NCBI GenBank assembly: GCA_019308645.1
Contig: JAFDHR010000040.1
Coordinates: 1-11,330, forward strand
Reading direction: 5' to 3'
Length of the DNA stretch: 11,330 bases
Source: Deltaproteobacteria bacterium
GTDB taxonomy: Bacteria; Desulfobacterota; DSM-4660; Desulfatiglandales; B25-G16
How positions within the stretch are numbered: position 1 is the first letter of the stretch; every line of letters starts with the position of its first letter. Position numbers and translations under genes: made by a program. Positions 1 to 10,952 of this stretch are shown here, one piece after another. Under the pieces are notes generated by a model, which had not been told where the DNA came from, made no database searches, and worked only from the letters and a program-made list of their open reading frames with translations.

Positions 1-140
1 TTTGAATTTTGGACATTTGGATTTTAATATTGTTTAGGGTTTAACATTTCGATATTCGGATTTTTCAATTTCTATTATGTTCTTAAAATAATTTTAAATT
101 GCCAAAATCAATAGCAGAACTTTTGAGTCAGTGAAATAGT
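1..140. other. AT-rich upstream region with degenerate low-complexity repeats
   Basis: No gene is visible. The first ~75 bases consist of loosely repeated words of the type ATTTGGATTT / TTTAGGGTTT / ATTTCGATATTCGG, resembling decayed intergenic repeats. The last 60 bases lead to the HcyBio start without a strong Shine-Dalgarno sequence (only GTGA-like bases about 8 nt before the ATG). I see no convincing promoter or riboswitch fold here. Confidence 0.4.
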
Positions 141-1310
141 ATGGCCAAGCATAAAACCAAAAAGACAATTGATGAAATAAACAGGCGGATAAAAGAAGGC
201 AAGGTGGTAGTAGTCACCGCCGAAGAGATGGTAGGCATAGTAAAGGAAAATGGCCCGGAAAAAGCCGCCAAAGATATTGATGTCGTTACAACTGGAACCT
301 TTTCCCCGATGTGCTCATCAGGGGCGTTTATTAATTTTGGCCACAGTAAACCACCGATCAAGGCATCTCAGGTCACCCTCAATGATGTTCCTGCATATGC
401 CGGCCTTGCCGCTGTAGATATATATATAGGCGCCGCCGAACCATCGATAGATGATCCATTAAATAAGGTCCACCCGGGTCAATTCAAATATGGTGGCGGA
501 CATGTCATACATGACCTTATTTCCGGTAAAAAAGTTCGGTTGGTTGCCAGGGCATACACAACAGACTGTTATCCCAAACGAGAAATAAAAAAACAAATAA
601 GACTATCAGATCTGCCGTATGCTCTCTTGCTTAACCCCAGAAATGCTTACCAAAACTACAACTGCGCCATAAACATGCAAGATAAAATGATCTATACCTA
701 CATGGGTGTCTTACGACCCAAGGCTGGCAATGCTAACTACGCAACATCTGGCCAGCTTAGTCCACTCTTGAATGATCCTTACTGTATGACAATCGGTCTG
801 GGAACCAGGATTTTCCTTGGGGGTGCCCAGGGATACGTAACCTGGGCTGGCACGCAGAACAATCTATCAGTAGCAAGAGGCAAAAATGGGGTCCCTTTGG
901 AGCCAGGCGCAACATTGATGGTGATGGGCGATTTAAAAGCGATGAATCCACGCTGGCTAATAGGAGTAAGCATGCTTGGTTATGGATGTTCCCTGGCTGT
1001 AGGTATGGGTATCCCAATCCCAATCCTGAATGAGGATATAGCCCGCTATACTGGTGTCTCTGATGAGGACATCTTCACACAGATCATTGATTATGGAAAA
1101 GACTATCCCACGGGAAATGCCAAAAGTCTGGGTGAGGTAAGTTATGCAGAGCTAAAGAGCGGGACAATAACACTGAATGGCCAGACTATCCAGTCTGTGC
1201 CAGTTTCCTCTTATGTGAGGGCTCAAGAGATTGCAGGAATCCTCAAAGAATGGATTCAAAAAGGGCAATTCTATCTTGGTCAACCTCAGCACCTTCTCAA
1301 GGATATGTAA
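141..1310 (+). CDS. HcyBio / DUF39 homocysteine biosynthesis protein
   Basis: A 389-aa protein of the DUF39 (COG1900, HcyBio) family. In methanogens, family members are needed to make homocysteine from aspartate semialdehyde and sulfide, and homologues occur in anaerobic bacteria including sulfate reducers. Family-typical blocks are visible: KTIDEINRRI near the N-terminus, VVTTGTFSPMCSSGAF (Cys58), LNDVPAYAGLAAVD at 80-93, and TDCYP (Cys143). Further cysteines are at 175, 215 and 283. Cys58 and Cys143 correspond by position to the cysteines I recall as functionally important in the methanogen protein; that is from memory. The length matches the DUF39 domain alone: there is no C-terminal CBS pair, and the NIL/ferredoxin-type partner found beside archaeal copies is not adjacent. 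The next gene, 87 bp downstream on the same strand, is larE-like, so co-transcription is possible. The ATG at 141 is chosen because homology begins within the first ten residues; it lacks a good ribosome binding site. Confidence 0.9.
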   Translation: MAKHKTKKTIDEINRRIKEGKVVVVTAEEMVGIVKENGPEKAAKDIDVVTTGTFSPMCSSGAFINFGHSKPPIKASQVTLNDVPAYAGLAAVDIYIGAAEPSIDDPLNKVHPGQFKYGGGHVIHDLISGKKVRLVARAYTTDCYPKREIKKQIRLSDLPYALLLNPRNAYQNYNCAINMQDKMIYTYMGVLRPKAGNANYATSGQLSPLLNDPYCMTIGLGTRIFLGGAQGYVTWAGTQNNLSVARGKNGVPLEPGATLMVMGDLKAMNPRWLIGVSMLGYGCSLAVGMGIPIPILNEDIARYTGVSDEDIFTQIIDYGKDYPTGNAKSLGEVSYAELKSGTITLNGQTIQSVPVSSYVRAQEIAGILKEWIQKGQFYLGQPQHLLKDM

Positions 1311-1397
1311 ATGTATGTAACCGTTCACTGGTTCGGGGTTCATATGTTTAGGGTATAGGGATGTTGAACCGTTGAACGCTTACAATTTTATACGTCA
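1311..1397. other. HcyBio-larE intergenic gap with GTTCA/GGTTC repeats
   Basis: The gap contains iterated GTTCA/GGTTC words (about 1319-1340 and 1366-1378), including GGTTCGGGGTT, which recurs at 2727-2737. It looks like a decayed interspersed repeat rather than a terminator: no stable hairpin with a T-tract is present, so read-through from HcyBio into larE is possible. Confidence 0.4.
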
Positions 1398-2195
1398 GTG
1401 ACTAAAATTAAGAAGTTAGAAAATATTTTAGATTCTATGGGATCTGTCTTAATAGCCCTTTCAGGCGGTGTTGATAGCTCCCTTCTCCTTCAAATAGCCT
1501 CCGAAACCCTCAAAGAAAACGTAAAGGCTGTCACTTTTACTTCTTCAATCTTTTTAAAAGATGACCTCATGAGGGCAGAAAATCTTGCCAGGAGATTAAA
1601 GATAGATCATATAAAAATCAAATTTGATATACTTTCTCACAGTGACTTTTGTAAAAACGATAAAATGAGGTGCCATGTCTGTAAAACGAAAATGATTGAA
1701 GAGTTAAAAAAAGAGGCGAAAAAACAAGGTATTAGCTATATAGCCGATGGTAGTAATATTGACGACATGAAAGATTACCGACCAGGCTTGGAAGTAGCAC
1801 AAAAATCAGGGATAAAATCACCTTTAATTGAAGCCGGTTTAGGTAAAAAAGATATAAGACAAGAGGCAAAAGAAAGAAAAATAGAAACATGGAATACGCC
1901 ATCTTCTGCCTGTCTGGCCTCACGGATAGCCTATGGCACCTATATAAACGAAAGGGACCTGTCTATCATAGAAAAAGGAGAGGAATTTTTACATCAGCTT
2001 GGTTTTAGACAAGTAAGAATACGTTATCATCCGCCTATAGCCAGGGTCGAGGTCTCAACCCAGGAGATCGTACGATTGGCAGAATTACCTATCAGAGATA
2101 AGGTGGTAGAAGAGCTTAAAGAACTTGGTTTCAAATATATTACCCTTGATCTCTCTGGTTTTAGGAGTGGAAGCATGAATGATCTGCTTTCTTAA
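1398..2195 (+). CDS. larE: LarE-type ATP-dependent sulfur transferase, three-cysteine form
   Basis: A 265-aa PP-loop pyrophosphatase of the LarE family. LarE adenylates a carboxylated nicotinic acid mononucleotide and inserts sulfur during synthesis of the nickel-pincer cofactor of lactate racemase-type enzymes. The PP-loop SGGVDSS is at residues 22-28. The family blocks SNIDDMKDYRPG (119-130), PSSACLASR (168-176), RIRYHPPIARVEV (207-219) and GFRSGSMN (254-261) are all present. Cys92 and Cys95 (RCHVCK) together with Cys172 (SACLAS) give the three-cysteine pattern known from LarE proteins that hold a [4Fe-4S] cluster, as opposed to the sacrificial single-cysteine type; an extra Cys85 lies nearby. 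The GTG start is chosen because the KLENILDSMGSV helix before the PP-loop is family-typical; ATG at 1437 would delete it. There is no clear ribosome binding site. No larB, larC or larA is in the window, so another sulfur-transfer role cannot be excluded. Confidence 0.87.
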   Translation: MTKIKKLENILDSMGSVLIALSGGVDSSLLLQIASETLKENVKAVTFTSSIFLKDDLMRAENLARRLKIDHIKIKFDILSHSDFCKNDKMRCHVCKTKMIEELKKEAKKQGISYIADGSNIDDMKDYRPGLEVAQKSGIKSPLIEAGLGKKDIRQEAKERKIETWNTPSSACLASRIAYGTYINERDLSIIEKGEEFLHQLGFRQVRIRYHPPIARVEVSTQEIVRLAELPIRDKVVEELKELGFKYITLDLSGFRSGSMNDLLS

Positions 2196-2223
2196 ACCTT
2201 GTCTTTGCCTGGACAATTAAATA

Positions 2224-2252
2224 TTGACAGAAAAAATATTATCTGTTAATTT
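2224..2252 (+). promoter_or_regulatory. Probable sigma70-type promoter of tRNA-Ala
   Basis: A perfect -35 box TTGACA (2224-2229) is followed after 16-17 bases by an AT-rich -10-like TTAATT (2246-2251). The tRNA begins about 14 bases further on, a normal distance for a short tRNA leader. The -35 is strong; the -10 is a partial match. Confidence 0.6.
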
Positions 2253-2265
2253 TTTTCAATTATAT

Positions 2266-2341
2266 GGGGCTGTAGCTCAGCTGGGAGAGCACATGACTGG
2301 CAGTCATGAGGTCAGGGGTTCGAGCCCCCTCAGCTCCACCA
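2266..2341 (+). tRNA. tRNA-Ala (anticodon GGC)
   Basis: A complete 76-nt cloverleaf. The acceptor stem GGGGCTG pairs with CAGCTCC and contains a G3-U70 wobble pair, the identity element of tRNA-Ala. The D arm is GCTC/GAGC, the anticodon stem CATGA/TCATG with loop CTGGCAG (anticodon GGC, 2299-2301), the T arm AGGGG-TTCGAGC-CCCCT, and discriminator A plus genomic CCA end the gene. The part from 2297 onwards is repeated exactly at 5795, so this gene is the likely target of an integration event; the copy here stays functional. Confidence 0.97.
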
Positions 2342-2353
2342 CTTAAAATCCCC
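2297..2353 (+). repeat. attL-like direct repeat, left copy
   Basis: Left copy of the 57-bp perfect repeat. It starts at the anticodon loop of the intact tRNA-Ala and runs 12 bp past CCA to ...TTAAAATCCCC. Being part of a functional tRNA explains its conservation within the gene, but not the identity of the extra 12 bp. Confidence 0.8.
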
Positions 2354-2390
2354 TCTTTAAGAAATTGTATCACTTCCCCCTTTTTATTTT

Positions 2391-2579
2391 TCAGATATAC
2401 TCTTCCCCTTTTATTCTCTCTACGTAATGCTGGGCGGAAAAGGCAGCCGTAGCGCCATCGCCGCAGGCAGTGACAACCTGTTTTAGATTTTTCTTGCAAC
2501 AATCACCACAGGCAAATATGCCCCCTCTCGATGTATTCATCTCCCTATCTACTATGATGTAGTCATCATCACTTTTCTT
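2391..2579 (-). pseudogene. Diverged 3' fragment of thioredoxin reductase (trxB remnant)
   Basis: Read on the minus strand, this encodes about 62 residues matching the last 62 residues of the full-length TrxB at 5866-6837, including IFACGDCCKKNLKQ and the C-terminal VERIKGEEYI. Over the aligned part about seven or eight residues differ (e.g. D/G, I/L, R/N, N/T, G/E, V/I, H/R), and nucleotide differences are more frequent, many of them silent. It is therefore an older or foreign copy rather than a fresh duplication. Homology stops near 2579; the upstream frame (MTPPPLHCL) is unrelated to TrxB and runs into the 85-bp repeat. FAD-binding, CxxC and NADPH regions are all missing, so it cannot be an active reductase. 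Its position next to the left tRNA repeat mirrors the native tRNA-trxB junction. Confidence 0.88.
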
Positions 2580-2599
2580 AAGGCAATGGAGGGGTGGAG

Positions 2600-2684
2600 G
2601 GGTCAAATCTTCGTTTGACTCATGTTCTTTTTTTCTTGCTTACCAGCACGTATCATTCACAAAAATAGACATAAAAAAGCTCCA
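2600..2684. repeat. ~85-bp direct repeat, left copy (flanks AlbA_2 pseudogene)
   Basis: Matches 4206-4291 at a constant offset of 1,606 bp until a one-base indel near the end. The first 29 bp (GGGTCAAATC... to ...TGTTCT) are identical and the rest is roughly 80% identical. The repeat opens with the small hairpin GTCAAA-TCTTCG-TTTGAC (2602-2619) and ends with AAAAAGCTCCA. In the right copy this last part is the left arm of a complete terminator-like hairpin, whereas here the right arm is missing. Confidence 0.75.
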
Positions 2685-2820
2685 TTATTTTCGTTTCAAG
2701 GTGATGGCTTAAGGTTCACCGTTCAAGGTTCGGGGTTTACCTGCCGTTTTTCTGGCAGGGTTCTGAATTCACTGTTTCTTTCCTACTTTTTTACCATACC
2801 GAGCTTTGGATTTCTTGACC
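2685..2820. other. Intergenic low-complexity repeat and hairpin
   Basis: Contains iterated GGTTCA/GTTCA words at 2711-2738, sharing GGTTCGGGGTT with the 1311-1397 gap, and a 6-bp hairpin CCTGCC/GGCAGG (2740-2745 and 2754-2759). The hairpin lies about 60 bp beyond the stop of the AlbA_2 pseudogene on the minus strand but lacks a clear T-tract, so I do not call a terminator. Confidence 0.45.
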
Positions 2821-4175
2821 TCAAAGCCCCCTCTTTAATATATATGTTTTCTTCGGGTCTTTAGGGCTTGTCCCCACTTCTGCCAGCACGCCATCTTCTA
2901 CGAGTTTACGTAATCGTGTGCGTGCTGTGCGATCGGATGTTTGCCAAATCCCTGCAGCCTGCTTTGTTGTTATTTCTCCTCTTTCAGCAAGATAGTCTAT
3001 CAGCAAATTGTGCCAATCTGGTACTTTCCGAGCTTTGACACGTTGCCCGAAAAGAGTAACCCGAAAGCTCATCCCAATTTCTTCAAAACGTGGTGGATGA
3101 AGCCCCTGTTCTTCGCAAGCGGCAATCATTCTACCGATTCCCGAGCCCCACTGTTCAATGAGTTTCAGTTCACGAAAAATTCGGCCAATTACGCGATTTC
3201 GAAGTTTTGAAACACCGGAGAGGGCTGCATCAAGCGTTAGACCAAATGGTAGAAGCCCTGGATTGGTGATTTCAATACGGTTGTCAAATACGGCCACTTT
3301 AATATCCATGCCTGAAATTGAATAGTCGGCGTGAACGATAGCATTGATGATAGCTTCACGAACCGCTTCAGAGGGATACTCCGGTATCTCCCTCCTTTGA
3401 ATACGCCCGATCTCAAGGGCCTCCGTGTGTGTCTTTCAATAAAGGCCACGGCACTTTCAACGGCCTTTGGAAGGTATTCATCAATCTCTACTTGATCAAG
3501 AAACCGTACCATATCTGTTCCCCGGAAACGAGCACACCGAATAACTGCATCGGGGAAAATGTCTCGTCTGGCCTTGCCAAAAAGAAGAACCGCACCATGG
3601 GTCGGCACATCGCGTCCGCCATGATTGACAAGAAGGCCGAGGGATTTCCTTCCTGGAGAGGTAAGTTGGCGGGATACGGATGAAAAGAACTCGGAAGCTG
3701 CTCGGAAGTCGATATCTTCCGAGCTCGTTTCCGAGCACGGCTGTTCATCAAAGAGAGTATTGCGAGCCAGTCGTAGTATTTCGGCAATCATGGGAGGGCC
3801 AGCACGCCGGTTTGTGGAGCCCAACCGGATGTAGACCCCTTTTTCAGGGCCTTCTGGTTTGACATAATAGGGGCCGACAGTGTGAGGTACAGAAATAACG
3901 ATCAGTTCCTTATCACGCCAGGCGTGTATATGAATTTCGGGAATGAGAAGTGGCCGAATCCCATCTGCAAAGGCATTGGCAAGGCGCTCCTCATCTTTAA
4001 GAGGATCAGATAGGCCCAATACATTTTTTGTTTTATCCTGAATACCAATGACAAGGGTACCTCCGGCCGTGTTGGCAAAGGCGACTGCGGTTTGAACGAT
4101 TTTTACCAAAGAACTGCAATTCCTTTTAAATTCGAGGGTCTTGCCCTCATCCCTTGCAAGCAAGCTTTTTATCAC
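2821..4175 (-). pseudogene. AlbA_2 / GHKL-ATPase transcriptional regulator (RecG-like COG2865), frameshifted
   Basis: Two minus-strand frames together give one COG2865-type protein of about 450 residues. The first 250 residues hold the AlbA_2 (Schlafen-type) nucleic-acid-binding domain: TLEFKRN at 13-19, AFANTAGGTLVIGI at 32-45 and YIRLGSTNRRA at 115-125. After the shift come the ATPase-like segment (EAIINAIVHADYS, ITNPGLLPFG, RNRVIGRIFRELKLIEQWGSGIGRM) and a C-terminal winged helix (TKQAAGIWQTSDRTARTRLRKL). The frame changes at a (CA)4 tract, GTGTGTGT at 3425-3432 on the plus strand, right after FIERHT; removing one CA unit restores the reading and joins HT to EALEIGRIQRREIPEYP. The start is GTG at 4175 with AAGGAG eight bases upstream. 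The family is common in mobile and accessory regions as a putative regulator. The two-base change could be natural decay, phase variation or a sequencing error. Confidence 0.85.
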
Positions 4176-4205
4176 TTGATAATAGCTCCTTTTGTCAACG
4201 TCAAC

Positions 4206-4291
4206 GGGTCAAATCTTCGTTTGACTCATGTTCTGTTTTTCTTGGATACCAGCACGTGTCATTCTACAAAATAGGCGTAAAAAAAGCTCCA
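4206..4291. repeat. ~85-bp direct repeat, right copy
   Basis: Right partner of the 2600-2684 repeat, lying 30 bp upstream of the AlbA_2 gene start. It opens with hairpin GTCAAA-TCTTCG-TTTGAC (4208-4225); adjoining it on the gene side are extra GTCAAC units (4195-4205), so the minus strand shows TTGAC four times in succession. The two copies exactly bracket the AlbA_2 gene, as expected for a cassette boundary or a gene carried between two REP/MITE-like units. Confidence 0.75.
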
Positions 4292-4316
4292 CGAACACTG
4301 CGTTGGTGGAGCTTTT
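4282..4316. terminator. Terminator-like hairpin (bidirectional)
   Basis: An 11-bp perfect stem AAAAGCTCCAC / GTGGAGCTTTT (4282-4292 and 4306-4316) with a 13-nt loop. It has A-rich and T-rich flanks, so it could work in both directions. It overlaps the end of the right 85-bp repeat; the left copy retains only the first arm. Confidence 0.6.
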
Positions 4317-4834
4317 GGAAAACCTTTTTTGAACGATAGCAGAACAAAGCGGCCTCCTTAAAGGTCTGAAATTACGTTGCGGAAAGCTTACGCCTGCAGA
4401 TGGGGCTTGTCAAGGAATATAGGGGCAGAGAGCAAAGGGTGCACTGTCTCTTAATCCCATACTTGTTATAGACATTGATACGATTCGACAGAAGCAAATC
4501 CTTCTTCATCCATCCTTTGGGCTCGCCAGTTTCGATCTTGATGTTTATTCTACCCTTAAAGATGCAATCCTTTTGCAAGATAGCGCCATCAAACAGCATC
4601 ACCGCCAGGAAACTACCTTGCCTTGACAGAATACTTTGATTCCATGCCCCTTAACCTTCAGTAAGATGTTGGAGATCCCGGGCATAAAAAATACCCCCTG
4701 CCATGTTAAAGGCAGAGGGTATTTTAAAGTTCTTGATTAGAACAGGGATGGGTTAGGTGGATGAATAAAAGGGAAATGCTTCCTATAGGTAGGAATAAAA
4801 TTCTTCTTTGGATAGTCCAGATTGCTGAATCATT
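4292..4834. other. Region without a recognisable gene; one unassigned small ORF (4372-4602, -)
   Basis: The only candidate is a minus-strand frame of 76 codons from ATG at 4602, open further upstream without a start of my choosing. It reads LFDGAILQKDCIFKGRINIKIE and KKDLLLSNRINVYNKYGIK and ends in a cysteine-containing tail (CTLCSLPLYS). The composition is protein-like rather than random, but I recognise no family, there is no Shine-Dalgarno sequence, and the upstream frame soon meets a stop. It may be a fragment of a lost gene. The terminator-like hairpin at 4282-4316 lies downstream of it and another at 4688-4725 upstream. Confidence 0.3.
4688..4725. terminator. Rho-independent terminator of the DUF2335 cassette (bidirectional)
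   Basis: A 15-position stem with one A-C mismatch: AAAATACCC.CTGCC (4688-4702) pairs with GGCAG.GGGTATTTT (4711-4725), with an 8-nt loop. A-tract and T-tract flanks allow function in either direction. It lies about 110 bp beyond the stop of the minus-strand DUF2335 gene. Confidence 0.75.
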
Positions 4835-5296
4835 TTATTTACGATTATTTGTGGCTATCTCTGCTTTAAACCGTTGTTCCCTCTCTTTTTGTTTACTTCT
4901 GCTGCCATATATAAAAACACCAACGAGACCAGTAAGACCAGTACCACCAATAATAGTACCACCGACCTCATACCCATATAAGATACAAATACTGCCTACA
5001 ATAACAGCAGTTAAGCCAATTATCAATCCGTAGTGTAATCCAAGTCGACTATTTTTGATGTCTGATTCAATCACTTTGGATTCAAGTTCTTGCCGGTGCC
5101 TGGACTGATTTTCAGCCATTGTTATGATTCGTTCAGCAGCATCAGGCACTGCCTGATTATATTGAATAAGAACTTCAGGGGGAGGCAATGGTCCTGCATG
5201 TAAATGCCCCTCTATAGTTGTCATACTACGCTGTTTTTGTTCAGTTGCTATAGGAGAGTAGGTAGGATTTTTGGATTTTTTACTTCTCTTCTGCAT
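4835..5296 (-). CDS. DUF2335 small membrane protein
   Basis: A 153-aa protein of the DUF2335 family (function unknown). The diagnostic block GPLPPPEVLIQYNQAVPDAAERIITMAE spans about 35-62. A charged, helix-forming stretch (QSRHRQELESKVIESDIKNSRLG, 64-86) follows. Then come two predicted membrane segments, about 87-108 and 111-131, the second glycine-rich (GGTIIGGTGLTGLVGVFIYG), and a basic cytoplasmic tail. The N-terminus is basic with no signal peptide. The start ATG at 5296 overlaps the end of the upstream 72-aa gene by 17 bases and has no good ribosome binding site of its own, pointing to translational coupling. In my recollection the family is frequent in prophages and genomic islands, which fits the islet; any holin-like or defence role would be speculation. 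Confidence 0.88.
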   Translation of the reverse strand: MQKRSKKSKNPTYSPIATEQKQRSMTTIEGHLHAGPLPPPEVLIQYNQAVPDAAERIITMAENQSRHRQELESKVIESDIKNSRLGLHYGLIIGLTAVIVGSICILYGYEVGGTIIGGTGLTGLVGVFIYGSRSKQKEREQRFKAEIATNNRK

Positions 5297-5498
5297 GGCC
5301 GTTTATTTGTTTCTCATACCGAGCCATAGCTGTACGAATATCAGAACCCACAATTTTCCAGTCAGAATTTACGGCATGATAATCAGCCTTTTCTGGGTAG
5401 GTAGAATAGTTATATTCATTTAATGTGCATCCTAAATCAAGAACTCTTGCCATTCCAGATATAATACTGGGATTTGCAAATAGAAAATAATTACCCAT
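5280..5498 (-). CDS. Small conserved-looking protein, partner of DUF2335
   Basis: A 72-aa acidic-to-neutral soluble protein without signal or membrane segments. Notable stretches are GMARVLDLGCTLNEYN (15-30), ADYHAVNSDWKIVGSDIRTAMARYEKQI (39-66) and a lysine-ending tail. I do not recognise a named domain; the pattern (MARVLD.G..LNEYN....EADY.A..SDW..VG.DIR.A...YE) looks like a conserved small family of mobile-region hypotheticals. The start is firmly set by GGAGGT (5505-5510 on the plus strand) six bases before ATG at 5498. It overlaps the DUF2335 gene by 17 bases, so the two form a compact operon read from the promoter near 5557-5585 and closed by the terminator at 4688-4725. A two-protein module is a reasonable reading, with the function open. 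Confidence 0.8.
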   Translation of the reverse strand: MGNYFLFANPSIISGMARVLDLGCTLNEYNYSTYPEKADYHAVNSDWKIVGSDIRTAMARYEKQINGHAEEK

Positions 5499-5556
5499 CT
5501 TTTTACCTCCACTATTTAGAGTTATAGTGGCTAATAACCTTTACTCGTAATCTGAT

Positions 5557-5585
5557 CTATTATCTTACCGGTTTTAGTCTGTCAA
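5557..5585 (-). promoter_or_regulatory. Probable sigma70-type promoter of the DUF2335 cassette
   Basis: On the minus strand a perfect TTGACA (plus-strand TGTCAA, 5580-5585) is followed by GATAAT at 15 bases (5559-5564) or TAATAG at 17 bases (5557-5562). The best -10 match has a short spacer. The 72-aa gene begins about 60 bases downstream. A second TTGACA (plus TGTCAA, 5615-5620) lies further upstream without a good -10. Confidence 0.5.
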
Positions 5586-5794
5586 TACTAAAAACAATTT
5601 TTATTATTTTTCGATGTCAACTCCTAGCCTAAATTTAAGACAGCAAAAAAAGTGCCAGATTCCAGAAAGAAAATGTGACAGTTTGTGACAAAATTAAGTT
5701 TTTGCTTACCTTCTTTCTATTGTTTATATTCCCAGATTCAATAAAATCAAATAGTTATGTGATTTCATTATGTTGCAAAAACCCTTGATCCCGT

Positions 5795-5851
5795 CTGGCA
5801 GTCATGAGGTCAGGGGTTCGAGCCCCCTCAGCTCCACCACTTAAAATCCCC
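5795..5851 (+). repeat. attR-like direct repeat: orphan tRNA-Ala 3' fragment
   Basis: Exact copy of 2297-2353. Bases 5795-5839 are the tRNA-Ala sequence from the anticodon loop through CCA. The preceding bases (AAAACCCTTGATCCCGT) do not resemble a tRNA 5' half, so no cloverleaf forms and this is not a gene. It is followed by a run of nine C (5848-5856) and then the native trxB 3' end. Confidence 0.9.
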
Positions 5852-5865
5852 CCCCCTTTTATTTT

Positions 5866-6837
5866 TCAGATATATTCTTCTCCCTTTATCCTTTCTACAT
5901 ACCGCTGGGCAGAAAAGGCAGCAGTAGCGCCATCTCCACAGGCAGTTACAATTTGTTTTAAGTTCTTTTTGCAGCAATCACCACAGGCAAAGATACCCTC
6001 TCTGGATGTAGTCATCTCGTTATCTACGAGAATATAGCCATCGTCACTTCTTTTTACCATGTTATCAAGGAAGGAAAGGCTTGAGGTCCATCCGATAAAT
6101 ACAAAGACCCCATTTACTTCAAGATCTCTCCTCTCCCCTGTCTTGAGATTTTTCAACTTCAACCCATCGACCGTAGTCTGACCAAAGATCTCATCCACAA
6201 CTGAGTCAAAGACAACTTCTATCCTGGTATTGCTAAATGCCTTTTCCTGGAGGATCTTTGTTGCCCGCAACCTATCCCTTCTGTGGATAATATAGACCTT
6301 GTTTGCAAACCTTGTTAAAAAAATACCATCTTCAAGGGCAACATCGCCTCCACCTACTACTGCGACAGGGAGGTCTCTAAAAAAAGCCCCATCACAGGTT
6401 GCGCAATAGGAAACACCTTTACCAGTAAATTCGCGTTCACCTGATACACCAAGATTTCTCTGCTCATGACCTGCTGCAATAATAATTGATAGACATTGAT
6501 AAGGCACAGGGTCATTATCTACAAAAACTTTCTTCAAATTACTCTCATCCTCAAGATCAACCCTGGTAACTTCTCCAAAAACTGTTCTCATCCCAAAAGA
6601 TTCAGCTTGCTGTTCCATATTATGAACAAGCTCCGGACCAGAAATACCCCCAATAAAACCCGGATAATTTTCAACCTTATCTGTAAGACTTGTCTGACCG
6701 CCAATACCTAGTTTTTCAATCAATATCGTAGAAAGCCTTGCCCTTGTTGTATATATCCCTGCGGTCAAACCTGCAGGTCCCCCACCAATAATAATAACAT
6801 CATAAACATTTGCCTTATTTACTGAATCCTCATCCAT
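5866..6837 (-). CDS. trxB: Thioredoxin reductase (NADPH-type)
   Basis: A 323-aa low-molecular-weight thioredoxin reductase of usual length, a cytoplasmic flavoenzyme passing electrons from NADPH via FAD to thioredoxin. The N-terminal FAD motif GGGPAG is at 18-23, with EKLGIGGQ following. The redox-active CATC is at 145-148 and the NADPH Rossmann motif GGGDVALED at 162-170. HRRDRLRA (185-192) supplies the arginines typical of NADPH use. The second FAD contact is FACGDCCKKNLKQIVTACGDG (283-303). That last region is unusual in having Cys285, Cys288, Cys289 and Cys300 where common TrxB proteins have FAAGDV and TAAGDG; the same cysteines occur in the diverged fragment at 2391-2579, so they are a lineage trait. 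The gene faces the tRNA-Ala fragment, 26 bp from its CCA end. The start at 6837 has AAAGGA about ten bases upstream. A further ORF start four bases inside is out of frame. Confidence 0.95.
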   Translation of the reverse strand: MDEDSVNKANVYDVIIIGGGPAGLTAGIYTTRARLSTILIEKLGIGGQTSLTDKVENYPGFIGGISGPELVHNMEQQAESFGMRTVFGEVTRVDLEDESNLKKVFVDNDPVPYQCLSIIIAAGHEQRNLGVSGEREFTGKGVSYCATCDGAFFRDLPVAVVGGGDVALEDGIFLTRFANKVYIIHRRDRLRATKILQEKAFSNTRIEVVFDSVVDEIFGQTTVDGLKLKNLKTGERRDLEVNGVFVFIGWTSSLSFLDNMVKRSDDGYILVDNEMTTSREGIFACGDCCKKNLKQIVTACGDGATAAFSAQRYVERIKGEEYI

Positions 6838-6878
6838 ATCCTATATCCTTTAATTGATAGTGTCTAAATCCTGCCCGC

Positions 6879-7050
6879 CCCGATTGTATCTGGACAGCCT
6901 GGTCTGGCACAGTGTTAGAAGTTAAAAATGCCTAACGTTAAAGAAATTAATCATGTTAACATCTAATTCAAGTTAAATTGAGGGGGACTAATAATTTTAG
7001 GCACTTAAGGCACTTTAGCCCTGGCCCAGACCTGTCCCGATACAATCGGG
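6879..7050. repeat. MITE-like element with ~28-bp imperfect terminal inverted repeats
   Basis: The left arm 6879-6907 (CCCGATTGTATC.GGACAG then GGTCTGG) is the reverse complement of the right arm 7026-7050 (CCAGACC.TGTCC.GATACAATCGGG) with a small 3-4 base gap. The right arm also contains its own hairpin CCCGAT-ACA-ATCGGG (7036-7050). Inner sequence has a second, weaker inverted pair based on TGCCTAA / TTAGGCA. There is no ORF inside and no clear target duplication. It fills the gap between comB and trxB and may act on transcript stability or termination. Confidence 0.6.
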
Positions 7051-7128
7051 ATTAGGCTGTATTGTCAGGACTTATAAATAATATAAAATTGCAATATTTG
7101 CCAAGGAAGTCGCGCCAGGCGGGCTCAC

Positions 7129-7836
7129 TTATAACTTTTTACACCTTACTGTCACCAGACCATCTTCTTTGACTGCCTCCAAGACAAAATCAAAGAGGTC
7201 CTTTTGCAAACAAAAAAGGGGATCTTCCCTTGGAAGATACGTTTTATCTCCCCTTAAAAATTTTTGAGCAGCCTCATTAAACACAATATTCTTTAAGGTC
7301 TCAAGACTATCGTAATTACTTCCTTTCAGAAGATGTTCTAAGTAGTCAGCACATCCTTCATCCTCTGGTGACTTAGTGATACCCCTTCTTCCCATGGCTA
7401 CCACTGTTACAACCTCGGGAAGGGGATTTTGAGAAAGTATATATCTGGATATAGCTTTCGCCATAACATAACTGCCAAGGATAACTATCCCTGCTTGAGC
7501 AAGTGCGCTTATCACACCGGTAACACCAGCCGTTGTCCTTTGAACTACGATCTTTTCTTTAAGAAATCCCCTTGGTTTCCTGATGAGTTCAGATGGAGAA
7601 TTTCCGAGATCAAAATTAGGGATCAGTTGCTCGTTAACCTCACCTGCCAAGACTATATCATCATGGTTTCTTTTAAGTGAAAAGGCCTCTTCAGGATTGC
7701 GCACAAAGATTACCTTTCGGGCTCCAAGATAAAAAAATATGGGAGTCACGGTAAATGCCCTAAACACATCAATAATAATAGCAAACCCTTGAGCCCGTTG
7801 AGCACCTTCGATCAGGCTTTCTCTTACTATTTTCAT
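7129..7836 (-). CDS. comB: ComB-family 2-phosphosulfolactate phosphatase
   Basis: A 235-aa protein of the ComB family, Mg2+-dependent phosphatases that release sulfolactate from (2R)-phosphosulfolactate in coenzyme M biosynthesis of methanogens; bacterial homologues are widespread and often unassigned. Family blocks are visible: AIIIDVFRAFTVTP (19-32, Asp23), LAGEVNEQLIPNFDLGNSPSEL (63-84), VVQRTTAGVTGV (97-108; the family often has TTNGT here) and SPEDEGCADYLEHLL (156-170). No membrane segment or signal is present. The start ATG at 7836 lies 18 bp after the malate dehydrogenase stop on the same strand, so the two are an operon. No comA (phosphosulfolactate synthase) or sulfopyruvate decarboxylase gene is in the window, so the physiological substrate is uncertain. 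Confidence 0.85.
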   Translation of the reverse strand: MKIVRESLIEGAQRAQGFAIIIDVFRAFTVTPIFFYLGARKVIFVRNPEEAFSLKRNHDDIVLAGEVNEQLIPNFDLGNSPSELIRKPRGFLKEKIVVQRTTAGVTGVISALAQAGIVILGSYVMAKAISRYILSQNPLPEVVTVVAMGRRGITKSPEDEGCADYLEHLLKGSNYDSLETLKNIVFNEAAQKFLRGDKTYLPREDPLFCLQKDLFDFVLEAVKEDGLVTVRCKKL

Positions 7837-7854
7837 CTCTATTATCCAATGAAA

Positions 7855-8790
7855 TCAGCCAAGTCTCTTTAAATCATCTACGAGACCCTGAACGGCCTGA
7901 GCTGATTTCTGAAGGGCCTCATTCTCCTCATCTGTAAGTTTTATCTCCACTATCTCCTCGGCCCCGGTTGAACCAAGCTTTACAGGTACACCTATAAATA
8001 GATTATGTATCCCATATTCACCTTGTAGATATGTAACACAGGGAAGGATCTTCTTTTTGTCCTTTAAAATTGCCTCAGCCATTTCCGTGGCCGCAGATGC
8101 AGGCGCATAAAAGGCGCTTCCTGTTTTTAATAAACCAACAATCTCACCTCCACCCTTTCTCGTCCTTTCAATAATGGCCTCAATCCTTTCAGCCGAGATA
8201 AGCTCAGTGATAGGTATGCCTGCTACCGTAGAATACCTGGGAAGAGGAACCATGGTATCCCCATGTGCACCGAGAACAAAGGCATGAGTATTCTCAACAG
8301 AAACATTTAGCTCCATGGCAATAAATGCCCTGAACCTCGCAGAATCCAGTACCCCTGCCATTCCAATGACCTTTTTTTTATGAAAACCACTTGTATCAAA
8401 GGCAACGTGGCACATTGCATCTAAAGGATTGCTTACAATAATGAGAATAGCATCGGGTGCAACGGTTGCAATCTCCTTAATAACTGATTTCATAATACCT
8501 GCATTTGTTGAGAGCAGATCATCCCTGCTCATTCCTGGTTTTCTGGGAATACCTGCTGTTACAATGATTATTTCTGACCCCTTTGCAAGAGAGTAGTCAT
8601 TAGTTACACCAGTAATCTTTGAATCATGCGCCTCAATCGGAGCAGCCTCAGCAAGATCAAGCGCCTTTCCAGCCGGCACACCTTCCAGGATATCAATCAA
8701 TGCAACATCCGCCAGTTCTTTCTCAGCGATCCTCATAGCGATAGTTGCGCCTACATTTCCGGCTCCGACAACCGTTACTTTTTTTCTCAT
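7855..8790 (-). CDS. mdh: Malate dehydrogenase (LDH-like, NAD-dependent)
   Basis: A 311-aa LDH-like malate dehydrogenase, oxidising malate to oxaloacetate in the cytoplasm. The dinucleotide-binding motif GAGNVG is at 9-14, and Asp33 (LIDILEG) is the acidic residue that favours NAD over NADP. Substrate binding uses Arg83 ([12 protein letters not shown], where LDH has Gln), Arg89 and Arg152 (LDSARFR). The catalytic pair is Asp149 and His176 ([10 protein letters not shown]); NPLD at 121-124 is also present. Arg83 supports malate rather than lactate as substrate. The start is clear: GAAAGGAG (within 8797-8805, plus-strand numbering) precedes ATG at 8790 by about seven bases. It is the first gene of an operon with comB. 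The IS1380 insertion lies only about 80 bp upstream. Confidence 0.96.
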
Positions 8791-8829
8791 GATGGTGCTC
8801 CTTTCTATATTTAATTGATTATTTAGTTT

Positions 8830-8871: not shown

Positions 8872-10483
8872 CCCCAATCCCGCTATTAATGTTGATTATT
8901 CGATCATAAAACTTGAAAAAACCTCGTTGATTCGGTAAGATACGTGTGTTCAAAAACAAATCAAACCATAACCAACGAGGTGAGATAATGATACGACAAA
9001 CAATACTTCCTTTCAAGGTAGAAATGACCAGAGACCTAATAACTCCCCATGCAGGCTTAGCATTACTTGGTGAATTTGCAGTAGGATTGAAATTACTGAA
9101 ATCAGCGGACAGATATTTACCCAGTCCTGGCAGTGGCGCTGGATACAACCCCTCTGAATACATCTTCCCCCTCATCTTAATGCTCAATGGTGGTGGGAGA
9201 AGCCTGGAAGACATCCGCCAGATAAAAGACGATGAGGGACTGAGAGAGGTTTTGCCATTAAAAAGGATACCCTCAACAGATGCAATGGGAGACTGGCTGA
9301 GGAGGATTGGGCAAAATGGAGGGCTTAAAGGACTTGAGAAACTGAATCATGAAATCATAAAACAGGGTATGAAATATGACGGCATCAAGGGCTACACCTT
9401 AGACATTGATGCCACAGGTATTGTAGCTGAGAAGGAATCAGCAAAGATGACCTATAAAGGCTTTAAGGGCTATATGCCTATAGTAGGTCATATAGCAGAG
9501 AATGGTTTAGCGTTAGGGGATGAATTCAGAGAAGGCAATGAGGCCCCTGCTGCAAGGAACCTTGAGTTTATAAAACACTGTGAAAGACAGATGCCTAAAG
9601 GTAAGGGAATCAAGGCCTTAAGAGCTGATAGCGCAGCATATCAGGCTGATATCATAAACTACTGTGAAAGTAGGGGCATTAAATTTGCCATAGGAGCCGA
9701 TCTTGATGAGGCAGTGCTAAAGACTATAAGGGCAATACCTGATAAGGACTGGAGCTCTTATAAGAGTGGATATATTGCTGATACAGTTCACTCAATGAAC
9801 AAGACAAAGGAGGCCTTTCGTCTTATTGTGATACGAAGGCCCTATCAGAGAAATATCTTTTCTGAGCAAGACGCCAGTGTAAAGTATACAGTGATAGCCA
9901 CCAATATAATAGAATCATCTGAAGAGGTTGTAACATGGTACAATCAGCGAGGAGATTGCAGTGAAAACCGGATAAAGGAGTTGAAGATAGGCTTTGGCAT
10001 GGAAAGGATGCCCTGTGGGCAATTTGAGGCCAATGCCGTCTTCTTTAGGATTGGCATATTAGCCTATAATCTCTTTCGTTTATTTATCTTAAAGACCCTC
10101 GCTACCTCATGGCACAAACATCAGGTTCAGACTGTGCGATGGAGACTATATCAGACAGCCGGTAAGGTTGTATTTCATGGGGGACAGGTTTTTCTCAAGG
10201 TCAGGCGACACTTTTCCCGGCTCTTTGCTGATATTCGTTTAAGGATATGGAAGTTTTCCACTACTTAGCATATATTGCAGAAAAAAGGCTTTATAAGCCT
10301 CGTTTAAAGGATTCAGATGGGCCGGTATGCTCAAATAATGGATTAAAGGACTCAATGTTGATAAAAGCAAGGAGATTAGCAACAATGGCCTAAAAGTGAC
10401 ATCAATTTTTGATCTCTGAATTGTTTTTTCAGGCTGAAACAACACGACACACAGGTTTGGGGAAATCAATGTCGGATTTTGGG
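8872..10483 (+). mobile_element. IS1380-family insertion sequence (about 1.61 kb)
   Basis: Ends are set by the 5-bp duplication ATAAA and by imperfect terminal inverted repeats: CCCCAATCCCGC at the left, and CCCAAAATCCGACATTGATT read inwards from the right. The size of 1,612 bp fits the IS1380 family. One intact transposase fills 8988-10268, leaving 116 bp on the left and 215 bp on the right. An imperfect inverted repeat CCTCGTTG / CAACGAGG (8922-8929 and 8973-8980) lies subterminally before the transposase. It is inserted divergently to mdh. Nothing in the transposase looks broken, so it may be active. Confidence 0.85.
8988..10268 (+). CDS. IS1380-family DDE transposase
   Basis: A 426-aa transposase with the RNase H-like DDE fold. 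The first acidic motif is LDIDATGI (Asp139 and Asp141 from this start), followed by the family-typical TYKGFKGYMPIVGHIAENGLALGDEFREGN. The second is LRADSAAY (Asp214). The third lies in QRGDCSENRIKELKIGFGMERMP (Glu326 or Glu331), typical of IS1380. The C-terminus ends in a basic, arginine-rich helix. I choose ATG at 8988 because GAGGTG (8977-8982) lies five bases upstream and the IS1380 N-terminus begins here; the frame is open back to a GTG at 8946 but those 14 residues are not family-like. The gene is intact. Confidence 0.94.
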   Translation: MIRQTILPFKVEMTRDLITPHAGLALLGEFAVGLKLLKSADRYLPSPGSGAGYNPSEYIFPLILMLNGGGRSLEDIRQIKDDEGLREVLPLKRIPSTDAMGDWLRRIGQNGGLKGLEKLNHEIIKQGMKYDGIKGYTLDIDATGIVAEKESAKMTYKGFKGYMPIVGHIAENGLALGDEFREGNEAPAARNLEFIKHCERQMPKGKGIKALRADSAAYQADIINYCESRGIKFAIGADLDEAVLKTIRAIPDKDWSSYKSGYIADTVHSMNKTKEAFRLIVIRRPYQRNIFSEQDASVKYTVIATNIIESSEEVVTWYNQRGDCSENRIKELKIGFGMERMPCGQFEANAVFFRIGILAYNLFRLFILKTLATSWHKHQVQTVRWRLYQTAGKVVFHGGQVFLKVRRHFSRLFADIRLRIWKFSTT

Positions 10484-10748: not shown

Positions 10749-10952
10749 CCCCGCAGCAAGCTGCTGGGTATCAAAGCGGAATTCCGCCGAAGCTAACCCG
10801 TTTTCGCTCTAGCGGGCTTCGACGCGGTTCGCCCCGCCATCTGTGTCGTGCCAAAGCTTTAGCGACGGCAGATCATCCCTGCATCACACGCGGCGCACAT
10901 GCAGCGCAGGCGCTTGCACCGCGTGAGCGCCTGCGCTGCATGTGCTGCAGGG
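10749..10952. repeat. GC-rich multi-hairpin element
   Basis: Consecutive inverted repeats, markedly richer in GC than the surroundings: CCC.GCAG/CTGC.GGG (10749-10768); the perfect 12-bp palindrome GCGGAATTCCGC (10776-10787); CGAAGC..CCG / CGG-GCTTCG (10788-10821); and a 20-bp perfect stem, 10895-10914 with 10926-10945, around an 11-nt loop. Outside this stem CCCTGCA (10877-10883) can also pair with TGCAGGG (10946-10952). CTGCTGGGTAT and CTGCAGGGTAT occur at the two ends of the block. It resembles a composite REP/MITE-type unit rather than a gene. Confidence 0.6.

Follow-up and report, generated by a model that had tools for sequence, protein, structure and literature searches.

How did a tRNA-Ala(GGC) gene come to be followed by two different trxB sequences, one of them a fragment, with cargo DNA between them? 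The stretch analysed here (the window; 11,330 nucleotides of Deltaproteobacteria bacterium contig JAFDHR010000040.1) carries a trxB 3′ fragment (wL) beside the tRNA and, beyond the rest of a 3.5-kb interval (the islet) and a second copy of the tRNA 3′ part, a complete trxB (wR) (Table 1). We propose, with a probability of about 0.68, that the interval is the remnant of an anticodon-loop element that lost its integrase end when a locus with one trxB allele (X-type) was joined to a locus with another (N-type) by an illegitimate joint at 2582/2583. A tyrosine integrase would have placed a small integrative element in the anticodon loop of tRNA-Ala(GGC) and so displaced the tRNA 3′ part, now the right repeat (attR-like); the element's other end, where the integrase would be expected, would have been lost, with the tRNA, spacer and trxB 3′ end of an X-allele locus in its place. 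The locus would then be a splice of two versions of larE-tRNA-Ala-trxB, unoccupied and X-type on the left and element-bearing and N-type on the right, with one joint formed by homology or site-specifically, either in the flanks or within the shared tRNA and spacer, and the other illegitimate. In this scheme we infer the integrase, the donor and recipient, and the order of events.

The tRNA-Ala repeat and its counterparts

The perfect 57-bp direct repeat, recognised in a preliminary description as starting in the anticodon loop and bracketing 3.5 kb, consists of two exact copies with a start-to-start distance of 3498 bp. It begins at base 1 of the seven-base anticodon loop (CTGGCAG) of tRNA-Ala(GGC), the sole tRNA identified by ARAGORN in the window, and ends 12 bases beyond the encoded CCA. 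Because 45 of the 57 bases belong to the tRNA 3′ part, identity between the copies is partly expected from constraint, which is not the case for the other 12, beyond the tRNA.

This arrangement is like that of the Islander tRNA islands, 2083 of which are listed with an anticodon-centred att site (PMC4383910): a whole tRNA stands at one end, the other carries a displaced 3′ fragment that points the same way, the boundary falls in the anticodon loop (here at base 1, in the known integrase crossover zone), and unoccupied sites exist in relatives. Unlike those islands, the islet has no integrase that was found, a trxB fragment by the whole tRNA, a size of just 3.5 kb and one gene split between frames; what comes after the whole tRNA is host-type spacer and trxB fragment, as far as 2582, and not element DNA. 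Anticodon-centred tRNA islands are common (PMC4383910); the islet is a degenerate one, unusual in its mosaic end. It shows that the true end of an element need not coincide with an att-like repeat next to a tRNA: by the repeats alone the element would be 2297-5851, yet some 240 bp just beyond the tRNA consist of host-type DNA from another allele.

Islet-free sites, which the preliminary description had suggested seeking in related genomes, were found in the family of genome G001. Among the 18 genomes of this family that were sampled, 13 have a full trxB orthologue (75-80% protein identity). A tRNA-Ala lies ≤60 bp from trxB, with no islet, in three of these (L003/G001, L069/G014 and L070/G011), and about 0.9-2.8 kb from trxB in four (L002, L004, L005, L006); the fetched stretches of the remaining six hold no whole tRNA. 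In L003 the order is hcy-larE-tRNA-trxB, with about 40 bp from tRNA to trxB and no islet. L002 has an enoyl-CoA-hydratase-like frame (named by eye) between trxB and the tRNA, and similar DNA follows trxB in others; L003, L069 and L070 have no room for this gene between trxB and the tRNA, and L003 retains an apparent start of its frame.

A 27-base segment spanning anticodon loop to T loop also occurs in 13 IMG/VR stretches, two of which (L159, L160) contain a whole tRNA-Ala by ARAGORN; there is none in the other 11. The tRNA identity begins at the same base as at window position 5795 in nine of these 11 contigs, and several bases earlier in L156 and L158. A relative of the L144 or L148 integrase is encoded in nine of the 11 (L144, L146-L150, L156, L158, L161), and none was found in L145 and L157, where the segment is near the contig end. 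Both reference integrases match Phage_integrase, and their genes end 6 bp (L144) and 14 bp (L148) from the CCA end of the tRNA part. Given this position on the CCA-end side, the integrase would after integration follow the whole tRNA, where the window has the trxB fragment. In L144 and L146-L150 a tyrosine integrase gene adjoins a tRNA-Ala(GGC) 3′ part that starts in the anticodon loop, and these are likely attP sites. In G010, of the same family as G001, an open frame about 93 bp beyond the tRNA matches the C-terminal part of Phage_integrase. The site-specific integration at the tRNA that had been proposed is thus backed by three islet-free loci and by integrase-linked viral sites with the same 5′ boundary.

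Several observations weigh against a former element at this site. Neither an integrase nor an element backbone is left, so that the element is read from its scar: as noted earlier from the sequence, the interval has no integrase, none being detected by Pfam, NCBIfam or PHROGs in those of its open reading frames (ORFs) that were submitted, and when the window was searched by tblastn with two viral integrases and an integrase remnant, the best match had E 0.07 and lay outside the interval. Among the 11 viral contigs, six are identical over the stretch compared, leaving few independent cases; seven differ from the window at a T-loop base (T in place of G), and the acceptor end is another one in four (L156, L157, L158, L161). 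None of the viral contigs contains the window's 45-base tRNA part exactly (seven do when two positions are left free), and agreement over the 14 bases that precede the right repeat is limited to 10, 7, 6 and 4 positions in L144, L148, L157 and L161, respectively. This cargo was not found at this tRNA in the six genomes searched with cargo DNA. The locus might even be a misassembly in which two strains were fused at the 57-bp repeat, given that two alleles are present and that a repeat of this length can mislead an assembler; in G004, contig C36 ends and contig C314 begins in this same tRNA, a break that also hints at a second copy. We regard a chimera as very improbable: even then, a genuine joint between the cargo and the X-type fragment on the left, outside the 57-bp repeat, would be required.

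Two trxB lineages at one locus

As first described, homology on the left continues past the repeat into trxB, to 2582; the protein identity of the fragment to wR was overstated at ~88%, and is 86% (54 of 63 residues in common; 80.7% DNA identity). On the phylogenies, wL belongs to an allele lineage X (with L003, L005, L007 and P0013) and wR to a lineage N (P0001-P0007). In a tree of two genes to the right of wR, a 2-phosphosulfolactate phosphatase-like gene and the malate dehydrogenase gene mdh, the window pairs with L003 (100/100), and L003, L005 and L007 as a group are rejected (approximately unbiased (AU) test, 3e-37). We use ‘comB’ as a working name for the former gene, for which NCBIfam scores are below the cut-offs. 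In the trxB tree, by contrast, wR and L003 as sisters are rejected (AU 5e-6), and L003 joins L005 and L007 (100). The fragment wL groups with L003, L005 and L007 with a support of 94 in the fragment tree and 100 in the full alignment; a wL and L003 grouping is allowed (AU 0.21). Sisterhood of wL and wR is rejected (AU p = 0.0014), which excludes wL as a recent paralogue of wR and agrees with the earlier suggestion that the left trxB came from another tRNA-Ala-trxB locus. Among the proteins, wL pairs in the tree with P0013 (0.994), with which it shares 62 of 63 residues, and wR falls with P0001-P0007 (0.929); the underlying searches scored 8000 candidates each, the best 120 of 663 and the best 120 of 438 were used, and five proteins identical to locus proteins were dropped beforehand. 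The hcy alignment comprised three taxa only. The ten nearest trxB loci come from metagenome-assembled genomes titled Deltaproteobacteria, Desulfobacteraceae, Proteobacteria or Pseudomonadota.

L003 is the closest locus, with 90.5% identity over window 136-2582, which aligns unbroken, and 91.6% over 7125-8812, but only 76.5% over 5795-7009. In 150-base windows, the identity of the window to L003 is 85-95% over mdh and comB and 67-83% in trxB, whereas that of L003 to L005 is 72-85% over mdh and comB and 81-94% inside trxB. Within its 192 bp, wL is nearer to L005 (93.8%) than to L003 (90.1%). The trxB genes of L003 (1883-2851), L005 and L007 (10001-10969) conflict with their flanking genes and keep their position beside comB, an apparent gene-bounded allele replacement in distant lineages of one family. 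In this respect the case is like xenologous gene displacement in situ, from which it differs in that the window holds both alleles, one merely as a fragment.

The comparison with L003 at first suggested that wL is the resident allele and wR the foreign one, a view that is no longer favoured over its converse. Distances of wR to relatives resemble those of comB (81.1 vs 80.0 for L002, 80.5 vs 81.6 for L004 and 80.5 vs 81.2 for L069), and the trxB of L003 itself conflicts with its neighbour genes, both of which speak for N as resident. Against this, the left side is unbroken relative to L003, and in L003 trxB exceeds the genome's own comB in distance to these relatives by no more than 1-3 points (77.1 vs 78.4, 77.3 vs 79.7 and 76.2 vs 79.5), such that distances do not settle which allele is inherited. 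Were the exchange polarised, the locus would show a housekeeping gene (trxB) swapped between lineages via a tRNA integration site. The C-terminus EEYI is found in all eight N-clade rows, in P0013 and in wL, and EEYV in the other seven of the nine X-clade rows. As EEYI ends 16 of 136 rows overall, it is recurrent and was discarded as a marker of N-type loci; its occurrence in P0013 and wL alone within the X clade lends slight support to an X gene inside an N-type surrounding.

Possible routes to the mosaic left end

The two spacer copies of the window are alike from the tRNA to the third-last sense codon of trxB, except for two indels in the right copy (22 nt deleted between runs of C, and a single T). 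They are the most alike among five spacers compared; the L003 spacer is alignable with the left copy, yet clearly different. In contrast, the adjoining trxB differs by 19% between the copies. Because the spacers are the same while trxB differs to this extent, a simple joint divergence of both copies in place is not possible. The preliminary description had held that trxB diverged next to a tRNA part that did not change; this is not supported, as the non-coding spacer is the same too, which means that trxB did not diverge in place and that existing X and N alleles were combined. Either the parents were close strains that differed in their trxB allele, or the spacers were equalised by recombination.

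Matching spacers are also what a local duplication of the tRNA part, spacer and trxB end would yield, one copy then being overwritten from start to stop by a foreign trxB. There is precedent for such gene-bounded replacement in the L003-L005 identity that is raised only inside trxB. A duplication would leave unexplained both the cargo and the start of the right copy at anticodon-loop base 1, the viral att-like boundary; we consider it unlikely, and it fits less well than the two routes to a remnant element set out below, which fit about equally.

The first of these, suggested in the preliminary description and entertained here tentatively, is imprecise excision followed by reintegration. Lambda gal/bio transducing phages and F-prime formation are classical outcomes of imprecise excision. 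As in these, mobile DNA is fused to adjoining host DNA and partial duplication follows upon reintegration; unlike in these, no circular or packaged form of the islet was seen, and the host piece derives from a different allele lineage. An element in an X strain would have left with its attR, the spacer and 192 bp of trxB, minus the integrase end, and the circle would have recombined into the window's N-type ancestor through a single crossover within the common tRNA 3′ part. The resident gene would then be the complete trxB. This route predicts the order tRNA-spacer-X fragment-cargo-tRNA part-spacer-N. The comB-like distances of wR to L002, L004 and L069 are those to be expected of an inherited gene, and seven N-type protein clusters (86-92%, among the matches listed) all end in EEYI, like wR. 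An N allele acquired from a congener would appear just as native, however, the distances are indecisive given the small offset of the L003 trxB, and the route requires an integrase in trans or RecA exchange across short homology.

A homology-anchored replacement is about as possible: foreign linear DNA would have been joined by homology at one end, with an illegitimate joint, at 2582/2583, at the other. Mirror events yield the same structure: islet-bearing N DNA may have entered an X strain, or an X larE-tRNA-trxB fragment may have entered an N strain and overwritten the integrase end, which would account directly for its absence. The alignment of the left side with L003 in a single piece from 136 to 2582 is consistent with such an origin. 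Homology-facilitated illegitimate recombination would be expected to leave a homologous joint, a non-homologous joint and a 3′ remnant of the gene that was displaced; for V. cholerae type VI secretion system and rhs loci, illegitimate joints on one side are proposed to have stranded downstream genes or 3′ regions of a displaced locus (PMC5361080). Unlike in the cases treated there, no effector-immunity selection is evident at the islet. Such recombination is rare where measured (PMC3240628; PMC5361080). The joint at 2582/2583 is apparently non-homologous. No clear microhomology was seen there by eye in the alignment, which also tells against a homology-anchored route.

A broader scenario, which we consider improbable, is that elements at this tRNA-Ala would mobilise trxB by imprecise excision and so spread the X allele among distant lineages of the family (L003, L005/L007, P0013), the resident gene being replaced from start to stop; the window would then represent a half-way transfer.

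Cargo and surroundings

The interval shows no sign of a working element. One gene, split over two frames (3237-4175 and 2821-3309), encodes an SLFN protein with relatives in 41 of 85 genomes of the order, the two closest at 65% and 79% (the latter over 160 residues). The DUF2335 protein was found in one of the 85; it matched 18 phage records, all at <60% identity, and no confirmed viral contig. PADLOC gave partial matches only (pAgo, E 3e-6; SoFic, E 0.002), and a defence system was rejected as an identity for the cargo.

Table 1. Features at the tRNA-Ala locus, with window positions
Feature	Position	Strand	Basis
tRNA-Ala (GGC), intact, CCA encoded	2266..2341	+	ARAGORN; Rfam RF00005
Left 57-bp repeat copy (tRNA 3′ part from anticodon-loop base 1, plus 12 bases)	2297..2353		Repeat search; alignment
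Spacer between tRNA and trxB, alignable with L003 spacer	2342..2390		Alignment
trxB 3′ fragment (wL), X-type; 63 codons and stop, 192 bp	2391..2582	-	Alignment, trees
Joint between trxB fragment and cargo	2582..2583		Alignment
Dispersed ~80-100-nt repeat, copy 1	2600..2678		Repeat search; matches in relatives
SLFN/AlbA_2 - HATPase_c_4 - HTH gene, split over two frames	2821..4175	-	Pfam; PHROGs
Dispersed repeat, copy 2, running into hairpin (arms within 4267-4331)	4206..4284		Repeat search
DUF2335 membrane protein, phage ‘moron’ family phrog_3996	4835..5296	-	Pfam; PHROGs
72-aa ORF, weakly similar to phage families of unknown function (best E 6e-4)	5280..5498	-	PHROGs
Right 57-bp repeat copy, putative displaced tRNA 3′ part, attR-like	5795..5851		Repeat search; viral-site comparison
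Complete trxB (wR), N-type allele	5866..6837	-	Pfam; trees

Cargo DNA was compared with the genomes of six relatives, and stretches of 45-115 bases were matched in three. The two copies of the dispersed repeat are 89% identical over 79 nt, and the 16-base core of the palindrome of this repeat occurs exactly in one of the 18 family genomes. Copy 2 with its hairpin (4206-4331) has partial relatives at three places in G005 and at one place in G006. The ~110 nt just left of the right repeat (5673-5785) have a relative in G003 (77%), and 50 nt of this stretch are also matched in L001 (13345-13394).

The left flank encodes HcyBio and larE (Pfam, NCBIfam); on the right, trxB is followed by comB, mdh and a DDE transposase. 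The last is a long open frame (8946-10268) that matches DDE_Tnp_1_4 by Pfam, and a perfect 20-nt inverted repeat with an 11-nt loop lies at 10895-10945.

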